A stretch of DNA of 64,000 nt, from NCBI RefSeq assembly GCF_000820185.1, contig NZ_CDCA01000028.1, positions 310,001 through 374,000 on the forward strand, given 5' to 3'. This stretch comes from Aeromonas tecta. GTDB lineage: Bacteria > Pseudomonadota > Gammaproteobacteria > Enterobacterales > Aeromonadaceae. Below are positions 24,782 to 55,432 of this stretch, one piece after another. The first letter of the stretch is position 1. Each line of letters opens with the position of its first letter. The notes beneath the pieces are model-generated. The model was given only the letters and a program-made list of their open reading frames with translations, had not been told where the DNA came from and ran no database searches. Both the position numbers and the translations under genes were made by a program.

Positions 24782-25027
24782 ATGAACAAAGTACTGGTAG
24801 CCGGTATCCTGGGTCTGATGTTGACCGCTTGTGGTCAGAAAGAAGAAGCCGCCGCTCCGGCCGCTACTCCGGCCGCCGACGTTGCTGCAACCGTTGAGAA
24901 GGCTGCTTCCGATGCTTCCGCAACCGTAGAGAAGGCTGCTTCTGAAGCTTCTGCTACCGTTGAGAAAGCTGCCGAAGACGTGGCCACCAAGGTCGACGCT
25001 GCAGTGAGCGATGCCAAGGCCAACTAA
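24782..25027 (+). CDS. Small lipoprotein built of 11-residue repeats
   Basis: An 81-residue exported lipoprotein. Signal peptide MNKVLVAGILGLMLTAC has a clear lipobox LTAC. After an Ala/Pro linker the rest consists of four consecutive 11-residue units of the type ATVEKAASDAS: the first three nearly identical, the last (ATKVDAAVSDA) diverged. An 11-residue Ala-rich periodicity suggests a long amphipathic helix or right-handed coiled coil, comparable in concept to Lpp. The start at the second of two close ATGs (GAGG site 8 bases ahead) gives the proper signal peptide. Function unknown. Confidence 0.8.
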   Translation: MNKVLVAGILGLMLTACGQKEEAAAPAATPAADVAATVEKAASDASATVEKAASEASATVEKAAEDVATKVDAAVSDAKAN

Positions 25028-25588: not shown

Positions 25589-26508
25589 GACTTGCTACTC
25601 TTACCATCCTTGTTGAACAGCTCGGCCATGCCCGCGACCGAGCCTATCAGGCTACCCGCCTCCAGCGGCATCATGATGATCTTGCTGTTGGGACCTTCAC
25701 CGATGCGGGCCAGGGCCTCGGTGTATTTCTGCGCCACGAAGTAGTTGATGGCCTGCATATCCCCTTCCGCGATGGCTCTGGAGACCATATGGGTCGCCTT
25801 GGCTTCCGCCTCGGCGGCACGCTCCCGCGCCTCGGCGGCGAGGAAGGCGGCCTGACGCTCACCTTCGGCTTTCAGGATCTGGGACTGCTTCTCCCCTTCG
25901 GCCTTCAGGATCCGGGACTGGCGCACCCCTTCGGCCTCCAGTACTTCCGCGCGTTTTTGCCGCTCGGCCTTCATCTGGGCGTTCATGGCGTCGATCAGCG
26001 CCATCGGCGGGCGCACATCCTTGATCTCGATCCGGGTCACCTTGATGCCCCAGGGGGCGGTGGCGGCATCCATGGTGCGCAGCAGTTTCTCGTTGATGGT
26101 GTCGCGCTGGGAGAGCATTTCGTCCAGCTCCATGGCGCCGAGCACGGTCCGCATGTTGGTCATGGTCAGGTTGCGGATGGCGCTGGTGAGATCGTTGACC
26201 TCGTAGCCAGCTTTGCGCGCGTCGACTACCTGCACGAAGCTGATGGCGTCGATGGTGACGTTGGCGTTGTCGCGGGAGATCACCTCTTGGGCCGGGATGT
26301 CCAGCACCTGCTCCATCATGATGATCTTGTGGCCGACCCTGTCCACATAGGGAATGAGCAGGTTGAGGCCGGGGGAGAGGGTGCGGGTGTAGCGGCCGAA
26401 GCGCTCTACCGTCCAGTTATAACCCTGCGGCACTATCTTGATGCCGGCACTCAGGGTGGCGAGCACCAGGAATACGAAGATCCCCAATACAATCAATGAC
26501 TCATTCAT
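25585..26508 (-). CDS. qmcA: SPFH/band 7 membrane protein QmcA
   Basis: A 307-residue prohibitin/stomatin-type protein anchored by an N-terminal membrane helix (about residues 4-24). The band-7 core begins [29 protein letters not shown] and runs to about residue 190, followed by a charged coiled coil with repeated [12 protein letters not shown]-like units and a C-terminal oligomerisation part. E. coli QmcA (305 residues) contacts the FtsH-HflKC machinery. Co-translated with the NfeD gene that follows. Confidence 0.95.
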
Positions 26509-52184: not shown

Positions 52185-53645
52185 TCACTCGGCCGCTTTG
52201 GGTTTGCGGCGGCGGGGACGACGGCGATTGCGGCTGTTGGTGCCACGTTTCTCACCGTCACCGCTACGCGGTTCAGTGGCCGGGGCGCGTTCACCGCTCG
52301 CAGGACGACGAGTCGCTTCCCGCTGCAGCTGCGGGCGCACATCCGGGTTGGATTCCACATAGCGCTCCCACCAGCTGGCGAGCTCGCCCAGGCCCCGTTC
52401 GACCCGGTTGCGCAGCAACAGGAAGTCAAAGGCCGCGCGGAACTTCGGATGCTCCATGGCGCGTTCTGGGTGACGGCCTTGGCGACGAGTCAGTCGCTGC
52501 TGCAGTGCCCAGATGTCACGTACGTCCGTGGTGAAGCGGCGCGGCACGGCGATGATGCGCACCTGAGCGTCCAGCACTTCGTTGATGGCCAGCATGAAAG
52601 CATCGTGCCAGGGCAGGCCGCTCTCATTTTCCAGCACACGGGCGCGGGCTTCGACCGCTCCCCACAGCAGGGCGGCGTAGAGGAAGGCGGGGGTAACCCG
52701 CTTGTCTTCACGCACCCGGGTGTCGGTGTCGGTCAGGGCATGCTCGATGAACTGCTCGAACGGCGAGTTGCCGTGCGGGGTGAACAGCGCGGCGACCTGC
52801 GGGAACAGCGGCTGGAACAGCCCGTATTCGCGCAGCAGCTTGTAGGTCGCCAGACCATCGCCGGCGAGGAACAACTTGAGTGTCTCTTCAAACAGGCGGG
52901 CGGCGGGAATGTCCTGCAGCAGCGGTGCCAGCTCCTTGATGGGAGCGGCGGTGCGTGGGCTGATGGTCATGTCCAGCTTGGCGGCGAAGCGCACGGCGCG
53001 CAGCATCCGCACCGGATCTTCCCGGTAACGGGTCTCGGGGTCACCGATCAGCTCCAGCTTGCGCTGGGCGAGATCCTCGATGCCACCCTCGAAATCGTGC
53101 AGGGTGAAGTCCCGGGCACTGTAGTAGAGGGCGTTGACGGTAAAGTCACGGCGCTCGGCATCCTCTTCGATGGTGCCATAGACGTTGTCACGCAGCAGCA
53201 TGCCTTCATCCGACTGGGCCGACACATGCTTGCTGGTATTGACCTGATGGTGGTGACCCCGGAAGGTGGCCACTTCGATCACGTCACGACCAAAGACGAT
53301 GTGAGCCAAGCGGAAGCGGCGGCCGATCAGGCGGCAGTTGCTGAACAATGCCTTGATCTGCTCCGGCGTCGCGTTGGTGGCGATGTCGAAATCCTTTGGC
53401 GTCTTCCCGAGCAGAATATCCCGAACTCCACCACCGACCAGGTAGGCGTCATAGCCGCCCTTGTTCAGGCGGTAGAGCACCTTGAGTGCATTCTCGCTGA
53501 TCTCTTTGCGCGAGATGGGGTGCTGGTCACGGCTTAAGGTACGACGCTGGCCGGCTACGTGGGCCGGCAGGGTTGATTCCACCGACTGCTCGCTGTCATC
53601 CTTGCCAAGCACCTTGCGGCAAAAGTTTGCGATCTGGGAAAAAAT
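52185..53645 (-). CDS. pcnB: Poly(A) polymerase I, apparent AUU start
   Basis: Adds 3' poly(A) tails that mark RNA for decay. Alignment to E. coli PcnB places the first codon at ATT in [14 protein letters not shown] (E. coli starts AUU in [14 protein letters not shown]), with AGAGGTG a few bases upstream; the nearest ATG is five codons further up and overlaps that ribosome-binding site. From ATT the product has 486 residues (E. coli about 465). Nucleotidyltransferase motifs are [20 protein letters not shown], with [22 protein letters not shown] and [18 protein letters not shown]; the C terminus is basic. The operon continues folK-panB-panC. Confidence 0.93.
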
Positions 53646-53702
53646 GGTACACCTCTTCATGACTTCAAATTGACGGGAGGCCAAAAAATAGCGGCCTATC
53701 AT

Positions 53703-53955
53703 AGCTCAGGCTTGACCAAATGAGAAACTGTGCGGTCTGCTCACCTGGTTTGGACCTGCTTGCCTAAAAAATTGAGCGGTCTATTCATCTAGCTCAGGCT
53801 TGATCAAATGAGAAACTGTGCGGTCTGCTCACCTGGTTTGGACCTGCTTGTCTAAAAAATTGAGCGGTCTCTTCATCTAGCTCAGGCTTGACCAAATGAG
53901 AAACTGTGTGGTCAGTACCCTCAGTTTGGCTCTGGCCAGGTAAAAACGAGAGCGC
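53703..53955. repeat. 88-bp tandem repeats between gluQ and pcnB
   Basis: Two adjacent units of exactly 88 bases (53703-53790 and 53791-53878) differ at only three positions. A third unit begins at 53879, is near-identical for about 35 bases (AGCTCAGGCTTGACCAAATG onwards), then drifts up to the gluQ stop. Each unit contains TGCGGTCTGC and GAGCGGTCT. On the minus strand each carries TGAGC…GCTCA followed by ATTTTTTAG, which looks like a weak intrinsic terminator. No coding potential. Confidence 0.9.
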
Positions 53956-53960
53956 TCCCT

Positions 53961-54869
53961 TTACTTGGTTTCCAGGGCCAACTTCTGTTGGCGGGGAACC
54001 CTATCCAGCCGCCAGTGTGCGATTCCCCAGCCGATCATCTCCTCGATGGTACAGGCCATCAGCTCGGCGGGTGGGCGCTGGCCGAGGAAGGCGAGCGCCT
54101 GCCACAGCGCCGGTCGCACCTCGTCCAGCGCCAGTGCCGGGGCGTGGTTCTGCTTGGAGAGCTTGTTGCCATCGGCCAGCACCGCCAGCGGCAAATGTAC
54201 CCAGTCGGGCACGGTGGCTCCCAGGGTCTGGTAGAGTGCAATCTGGCGCACCGTGGGCTCCAGCAGATCGGCGCCGCGCACTATCTCGGTAATACCGCTG
54301 TCCATGTCATCCACCACTACCGCCAGGTTATAGGCGTAGAGCCCGTCCCGGCGGCGAACGATGAAGTCCTCCTCCGCCAGTTCGGCAGGCACCGCGATGC
54401 GGCCTTGCAGCGCATCGTCGAAATGGTAGACGGGCCTATGTTGGCGCAGCCGGGCGGCGCACTCCTCTGGCGGCAGCCCCAGGCTGCGGCAGTGACCGCC
54501 ATAGAAGCCACCAGCGGCCATGATCTCGCGCCGGGTGCAGCGGCACCAGTAGAGATCTCCCGCCCGGTAGAGTCGCTCGATGATCTCGTCATAGCGGCCG
54601 TGGCGCTGACTCTGGAACATCACTTCCCCATCCCAGTAGAGGCCATGGGCCTCCAGGGTGCGGAGGATAAGCTCACTGGCGCCGACCATCTCCCGCGGCG
54701 GATCTATGTCTTCGATGCGTACCAGCCAGCGTCCCGCTTGCGACCTGGCCTGCAAGAAGCTGCCGAGGGCGGCAATCAGCGAGCCAAAGTGGAGCGGGCC
54801 CGAAGGGGAGGGGGCAAAACGGCCGACATAGGGTTGCGTGCGGGGCGAGGAAGCTGGAGTCATGACCAT
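53961..54869 (-). CDS. gluQ: Glutamyl-Q tRNA(Asp) synthetase
   Basis: Truncated GluRS paralogue that attaches glutamate to queuosine in tRNA-Asp. Up to 302 residues. Class I motifs: [20 protein letters not shown] (HIGH-type HFGS) and the [11 protein letters not shown] (KMSKS-type) loop. The zinc-binding pattern [19 protein letters not shown] is typical of GluQ. The exact start is unsure: two ATGs two codons apart, neither with a good ribosome-binding site. Located between dksA and pcnB as in E. coli. Confidence 0.95.
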
Positions 54870-54931
54870 GGAGATTCGGGTGGGCGGTGCATTGAGGCAA
54901 CATTCTGGGACTGTGGTGCTGAAAGCTCAAT

Positions 54932-54962
54932 AAAAAAGGGAGCCCGCAAGCTCCCTTTTTCT
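54932..54962 (-). terminator. dksA terminator
   Basis: AAAAAAGGGAGC/GCTCCCTTTTT stem with a CCGCAA-type loop; on the minus strand it follows the dksA stop by about 20 bases. Confidence 0.88.
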
Positions 54963-54982
54963 GTCTATGTCGAGGGTCGGCA

Positions 54983-55432
54983 TCAGCCAGCCATCTGCTT
55001 TTCCTTGATTTCAGCCAGCGTCTTGCAGTCGACACAGAGGTCGGCAGTCGGACGGGCTTCCAGGCGACGAATACCAATTTCGATACCGCAATGTTCGCAG
55101 TAACCAAAGTCGTCTTCTTCGAGGAGCAGCAAGGTCTTCTCGATCTTCTTGATCAGCTTGCGTTCACGGTCGCGGGTGCGCAGCTCGAGCGCGAACTCTT
55201 CTTCCTGCGCGGCGCGATCGACTGGATCCGGGAAATTGGCAGCCTCATCCTTCATGTGGTCAACGGTGCGGTCAACTTCCTGCATCAGTTGGTTACGCCA
55301 GGCTCCCAGGATCTTGCGGAAATGAACCTTCTGTTGGTCATTCATGTACTCCTCACCGGCTTTGACCTGGTAAGGCTCGACACCCGCAATGGCCAGGGGG
55401 CCCAGAGATTTCCTGTTTTCGCCTGTTGGCAT
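54983..55432 (-). CDS. dksA: RNA polymerase-binding transcription factor DksA
   Basis: Binds the secondary channel of RNA polymerase and acts with ppGpp in the stringent response. 149 residues (E. coli 151). The coiled-coil tip sequence [20 protein letters not shown] includes the key Asp residues, and the zinc finger is [15 protein letters not shown]…CVDC. AGGAG precedes the ATG. Confidence 0.98.

Follow-up and report, generated by a model that had tools for sequence, protein, structure and literature searches.

Why does a stack of 88-bp repeats stand between gluQ and pcnB, the gene for poly(A) polymerase I (PAP I), in Aeromonas tecta? The repeats lie in a 64,000-nucleotide stretch of contig NZ_CDCA01000028.1 (here called the window). 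An earlier note on this DNA had suggested that they may be weak terminators or RNA-processing sites ahead of pcnB. Below, we consider what the units are copies of, how they vary among relatives, and what they might do.

The repeat array and its surroundings

On the minus strand the genes run dksA, gluQ, the gap, and pcnB, the order also found in E. coli (dksA-gluQRS-pcnB-folK). In the window, pcnB occupies 52185–53645 and has 68% DNA identity to E. coli pcnB over 839/901 bases, and the upstream gene, gluQ (glutamyl-Q tRNA(Asp) synthetase), occupies 53961–54869, its position in the gene order being shared with E. coli. The start codon of pcnB is probably AUU (53645–53643) with GAGGTG as the Shine-Dalgarno sequence upstream of it (53655–53650), as in E. 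coli, for which an AUU start is reported in an excerpt of one paper (PMC9764084). The sequence GAGGTGNNNCATT is present in all 34 Aeromonas gaps compared here, and an ATG just before the Shine-Dalgarno sequence in only 21/34. In the 27 Enterobacteriaceae loci read (see below), pcnB has a Shine-Dalgarno sequence plus ATT or ATC. By eye, the pcnB start region is also similar in Photobacterium and Colwellia.

The 34 gluQ–pcnB gaps comprise 27 plus those of 7 further Aeromonas genomes, the window's own among the 7 (22 of 29 further gaps were merged as identical to gaps among the 27). They hold 33 different sequences, two gaps being identical. Three other loci (L029, L041, and L050) yielded no gap because gluQ or pcnB was unmatched.

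The gap in the window contains three in-register 88-bp units at 53702–53965, all read on the minus strand and spaced 88 and 88 bp apart. Unit 1 (53702–53789) is nearest to pcnB, and its edge falls at the start of the proximal −10 box described below; it is followed by unit 2 (53790–53877) and unit 3 (53878–53965), which are 97% and 72% identical to it, respectively. Tandem Repeats Finder reports 53702–53913 with a period of 88 and 95% matches, and among its nine rows the array alone has a period greater than 33 bp (its own 44-bp sub-period aside). A repeat of this length that is so nearly perfect excludes chance. Thus, the tandem repeats described in the earlier note are real, including the 97% identity of two units, and they lie where it placed them, although the extent it gave (53703–53955) misses one base on the pcnB side and ten on the gluQ side. 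The decay that it described in the third unit is uneven: a single mismatch separates the first 36 bp from unit 1, whereas the remainder is diverged and overlaps the end of gluQ, running into its stop codon. Elsewhere in the window, there are 33-bp repeats at 24887–24972 and 25852–25941 (2.6 and 2.7 copies), whose period is a multiple of three, so they possibly lie in coding sequence.

The TGAGC/GCTCA motif followed by a T-run, said to occur in each unit, is indeed present on the minus strand, but only twice: TGAGC...GCTCA followed by ATTTTTTAG lies across the boundary between units 3 and 2 and across that between units 2 and 1, so that the TGAGC/GCTCA-ATTTTTT element belongs to the two unit junctions and not to every unit. 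The TGAGC closest to pcnB is followed by TATGATAGGCCGCTATTTTTT and lacks GCTCA.

The region matches a single place in the 4.75-Mb genome (E up to 0.001), and genome-wide matches to a 21-base core pattern (up to three mismatches) are the three array copies themselves, with none for the reversed control. A dispersed repeat of the REP or ERIC kind was rejected on these grounds, and the element is tied to pcnB, the outcome that the earlier note had set against a genome-wide dispersed repeat. The T-run block alone occurs at chance level genome-wide (6 matches vs. 7 for the control). Known structured RNAs were also considered and rejected, as a search of Rfam up to E 5 gave nothing within the array; its only, weak match (E 0.75) falls outside, at 54930–55009.

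The units are copies of the pcnB promoter segment

In the window, the proximal pcnB promoter consists of a −35 box TTCTCA (53726–53721), 17 bp, a sigma-70-like −10 hexamer TATGAT (53703–53698), 8 bp, and then the presumed start, A (53689), and a tract of six T (53688–53683). The two boxes give 9/12 matches to sigma-70 at a spacing within 16–18 bp, and the proximal copy scores equally in 34/34 Aeromonas gaps. Across these gaps, the −35 box is TTTTCA in 23, TTCTCA in 10 (the window's included), and TTCGCA in one; the −10 box is TATGAT in 29 and TATCAT in five; the spacer is 17 bp; and N8 then A plus T5–7 follows the −10 in all 34. Searched for across whole genomes, the −10/T-tract block is present in 37/37 from Aeromonas, and the genome of the window has two matches to TATNAT-N8-ATTTTTT (none to the control). 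The proximal copy is expected to be the working promoter of pcnB, with its start at 53689. One sobria-like genome (G029:C44) has a further exact match to the promoter pattern, inside a long open frame that reads like an acyltransferase; we attribute it to chance.

A profile built from the 34 proximal promoters, which match it by construction, finds the two upstream units of the window at E 4e-10, and also the upstream units of relatives. Promoter and upstream units have in common the −35 box, the spacer, and the GAGCTA and CCGCT..TTTTT blocks. What is repeated, in other words, is the −35 side of the pcnB promoter together with the T-tract of its start region and ~40 bp of linker. Unit 1 accordingly carries the −35 box and spacer of the presumed working promoter, the linker, and the T-run at its upstream junction; unit 2 is an upstream promoter copy, and the well-kept 36 bp of unit 3 are the −35 side of another.

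The upstream copies have lost a usable −10. In the window, TAGATG takes the place of the −10 of unit 2 at its junction with unit 1, and again that of unit 3 at its junction with unit 2. A sigma-70 −10 hexamer should have A2 and T6, yet T6 is present in 0/22 upstream units (from 14/34 gaps), compared with 34/34 gaps for the proximal promoter. The hexamers found instead are TATGCA (five units), TATGCG (four), TATCGG (four), CAGGGG (two), TAGATG (two), and five others once each, and in different clades small insertions of different lengths are present at the upstream −10. Most likely, these copies would be inactive, or nearly so, by themselves. Thirteen of the 22 carry TAGACCGC, for which the proximal form is TAGGCCGC or TAAGCCGC; this variant is distributed over the window's lineage and the veronii/dhakensis group.

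Copy number and linkers vary between lineages

The number of full units per Aeromonas gap ranges from 1 to 4. Two or more are present in 11/34 gaps and one full module in 23/34, where modules matched over most of the profile are counted; by anchor count, 14/34 gaps have at least one upstream unit. Aeromonas lacus has two full units vs. four in a close relative (L003) at a divergence of 0.08 at 4-fold sites of pcnB, so that repeat number differs between close lineages, as it does in variable-number repeats. Copy number is therefore variable between Aeromonas lineages, as the earlier note had thought possible for strains, the differences seen here being between species (the collections used have one genome per species). 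Multi-copy gaps occur in two parts of the pcnB tree, and the fewest state changes that account for them are four, two of which are forced by well-supported branches (the forks around the window lack resolution). By eye, the gap of A. aquatica opens with a window-type linker right after the gluQ stop, and it looks like a contracted array.

The period is 87–90 bp in 21/22 upstream units, the other being that of A. eucrenophila (97 bp). Linkers fall into types that are 0.36–0.76 alike, often only about half, and the arrays of A. sobria and A. australiensis each mix different types, a sign of recombination. Moreover, in 20/22 upstream units the left half is nearer to the proximal copy of its own genome (0–5 differences/22) than to the average of the others, as homogenization would give, with a contribution from shared descent.

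Two other features were seen at these loci. In A. bivalvium (L061, gap positions 79–103) there is a different duplication, in which GATAGGCCGCTGTTTT is repeated downstream from the promoter start region. In L048 and L013, the first ~400 bases show that an A. dhakensis contig opens with an inverted fold-back of part of gluQ, which is either an assembly artefact or a real inversion.

A probable labile duplication of a promoter segment

We think it reasonably probable that the array is a labile, mostly nonfunctional tandem duplication of the pcnB promoter segment, in which the proximal copy alone works. DNA copying most likely left the array behind as a changeable remnant, which would not be a series of transcription stop signals, and its own function is most likely none or slight. 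The event, tandem duplication, is an ordinary one; the place is unusual, in that a promoter segment was duplicated and only one copy looks able to work.

The proposed history begins with a locus-bound tandem duplication of the segment made up of the −35 box, the spacer, the start-region T-tract, and the ~40-bp linker. Only the copy nearest to pcnB would retain its −10 and start pcnB transcription, and the upstream copies would have lost theirs through small insertions or substitutions, not the same ones in every lineage. Copy number would then move up and down as the 88-bp units slip or recombine unequally, a process that would also homogenize the sequence upstream of the −10. Selection probably acts against extra active promoters, since cells keep PAP I scarce and an excess is toxic, as described in excerpts of two papers (PMC9764084, PMC11760895).

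The array provides a natural series of one to four copies of a promoter segment at a gene whose product stays scarce, and it could show how promoter duplications get silenced. Variable-number tandem repeats in promoters are familiar in bacteria, for example, in the phase-variable adhesin promoters of Haemophilus. As there, direct repeats lie by a promoter and their copy number differs between lineages; the Aeromonas unit differs from the Haemophilus repeats in that it is taken from the promoter itself, is 88 bp long, and has a broken −10. A literature search on promoter repeats returned nothing on point, and among the papers listed for Aeromonas and pcnB none was on the pcnB promoter, judging by titles and the beginnings of abstracts.

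Constraint on the upstream units

Among 43 pairs of upstream units of the same linker type from different species, divergence is 0.082 in the core, 0.097 in the linker, and 0.223 in the −10 region. At 4-fold sites of pcnB it is 0.173, so the upstream units diverge about half as fast; the pairs are non-independent, and typing linkers by sequence biases the set toward similar pairs. This slow divergence of the whole unit could fit selection on the whole unit, typing bias, or gene conversion. Together with the upstream-specific TAGACCGC and a period held at 87–90 bp despite unlike linkers, it leaves room for a function.

One such function would be that of a regulatory array of many sites, in which the repeated core is bound by a DNA-binding protein, or by RNA polymerase itself at −35-like decoys, and copy number tunes the proximal promoter. 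We consider this unlikely, although the regular period, the whole-unit divergence below that of 4-fold sites, the retention of the −35/spacer and CCGCT..TTTTT blocks, and the presence of TAGACCGC in 13/22 units all speak for it. However, within linker types the core is hardly better kept than the linker, contrary to what a specific binding site there would lead one to expect, and outside the array the genome has no match to the 21-base core with up to three mismatches, which would be unusual for the site of a regulator. Furthermore, 88 bp does not correspond to an integral number of helical turns, and 23/34 gaps have one full module only.

The promoter in Enterobacteriaceae and a possible link to UTP

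The proximal promoter that a labile duplication would have left in charge of pcnB is also found outside the genus. In E. coli, located through pcnB similarity, TTCTCA-17-TATGAT-TAGCCGCT-A-T7 stands at the same place. In a sample of Enterobacteriaceae (the family of Serratia symbiotica), the core with up to three mismatches was present in 33/60 genomes, whereas a control pattern matched once in 2/60; 32/35 genomes of at least 3 Mb had the core, and 24 of the 27 misses were smaller genomes. From the 33 matching genomes we obtained 30 loci (three genomes gave none). TAT[GC]AT-N8-[AG]T4–8 was found within 260 nt upstream of pcnB in 27/30, a rate that is biased because the loci were fetched by the core pattern, with A in 19 and G in eight. 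TTCTCA, which is outside the fetching pattern, was found in 25 of the 27 promoters read, and in 7/27 the intact promoter core lies 115–218 bp before the start codon. Outside the 27 are L136, which has a changed −10, and L134 and L147, in which the stretch was misread, the pcnB match beginning at residue 29.

The Aeromonas locus is thus like the pcnB region of E. coli and other Enterobacteriaceae in its gene order (dksA-gluQ-pcnB) and in its TTCTCA-17-TATGAT-N8-A-T-tract promoter. The Enterobacteriaceae loci differ in that they lack the 88-bp array, with one module within 260 nt upstream of pcnB in 27/30, none in 3/30, and two in none of the 30. Conservation across the class was considered and rejected: in a class-wide sample the core with up to two mismatches was found in 1/369 genomes, the window's own, and with up to three mismatches in 0/3 more distant relatives (Photobacterium, Thalassomonas, and Gilliamella). 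By eye, the gaps of such distant relatives have a different start region.

UTP-dependent reiterative transcription is favored by an A start, an 8-bp spacer, and a T-run in the first transcribed bases, according to an excerpt of one paper (PMC6245113). The presumed start A, 8-bp spacer, and early T-run at pcnB are like those of pyrBI, codBA, upp, and carAB of E. coli; unlike these, pcnB is no pyrimidine gene, and it has upstream copies that are without a −10. In reiterative-transcription promoters of the codBA type, a purine lies 7–9 bp past the −10 and a T-tract follows. By sequence alone, this arrangement is present in 34/34 Aeromonas gaps and 27/30 Enterobacteriaceae loci.

The conserved T-tract in the start region suggests that pcnB may sense UTP through reiterative transcription, and the start region may be regarded as a candidate for a UTP-sensing, reiterative-transcription start. 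If this were true, RNA 3′-tailing and decay would be coupled to the pyrimidine pool via PAP I synthesis. The retention of a T-tract at pcnB in two families raises the specific and cheaply testable question of whether the nucleotide pool controls the poly(A)-adding enzyme by way of transcript slippage; our literature search found no paper joining pcnB and reiterative transcription. The wider proposal, that the start region is UTP sensitive and that in some Aeromonas the −10-less copies damp or buffer the promoter as a cis element of variable copy number, strikes us as decidedly unlikely.

Terminators and additional promoters

It is highly unlikely, in our judgment, that the units act as weak terminators or RNA-processing sites and so keep transcription of gluQ from running on into pcnB. 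The case for it is that hairpin-capable sequence does precede the T-runs. The hairpins before 26 upstream T-runs average −9.6 kcal/mol, compared with −6.2 for shuffled sequence (mean p 0.25), and those formed by CGGTTTTT...AGACCG in relatives of the veronii/dhakensis group range from −8.6 to −19.0 kcal/mol. However, p < 0.05 holds for only 4/26, all from related sequences, and there is no excess if hairpins are required to lie no more than 2 nt from the T-run (mean −2.9 vs. −3.7 in shuffles; 25 T-runs, the window's absent). These tests shuffle only the 48–50 nt before the T-run; a first count of terminators (96 found, 40 "expected") was discarded, as its shuffles destroyed the T-runs.

In the window itself, the best hairpins before the two upstream T-runs, −4.0 kcal/mol (p 0.61) and −6.8 kcal/mol (p 0.16), are no better than those of dinucleotide shuffles and fall short of an intrinsic terminator, for which the dksA terminator 1 kb away (−11.2 kcal/mol) served as control. 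Of the hairpins listed, those of the window and of A. eucrenophila alone use the TGAGC/GCTCA stem. A pattern scan of 53500–54200 finds two terminator-like sites (0.8 in shuffles); of these, the site on the same strand as pcnB is none other than the proximal promoter.

A conserved RNA structure was rejected as well, as RNAalifold on 22 upstream units gave only a 3-bp helix (−2.1 kcal/mol). Folded singly, the units of the window have z-scores of −2.1, −0.8, and −0.8 (−0.2 for an offset stretch); unit 1 alone folds somewhat better than shuffles, 8/200 of which were as good. Moreover, the T-run of the array lines up with the T-tract in the start region of the pcnB promoter, which accounts for it better than a terminator tail does. 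The terminator reading mistakes the one for the other; it does not stand for the window, and for the relatives in the veronii/dhakensis group it is weak at best.

The control lies at 54932–54960, between dksA and gluQ, where there is a terminator-like GGGAGC...GCTCCC plus T-run. It resembles the terminator downstream from dksA that controls gluQ in Shigella, as reported in an excerpt of one paper (PMC3542578), and it is unlike the array hairpins in being upstream of gluQ, outside the array, and stronger.

Finally, it is scarcely credible that the upstream copies also start pcnB transcripts, even though they keep −35-like boxes and the spacer and E. coli pcnB has three sigma-70 and two sigma-S promoters (excerpt of PMC9764084), since no upstream unit has the last T of the −10, in none of the 34 gaps does the best upstream score for sigma-70-type hexamers fall in the top 10% of 200 shuffles, and the highest score within 400 nt upstream of the proximal promoter is 8.5 (A. 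lusitana) vs. 9.5 for the proximal copy.
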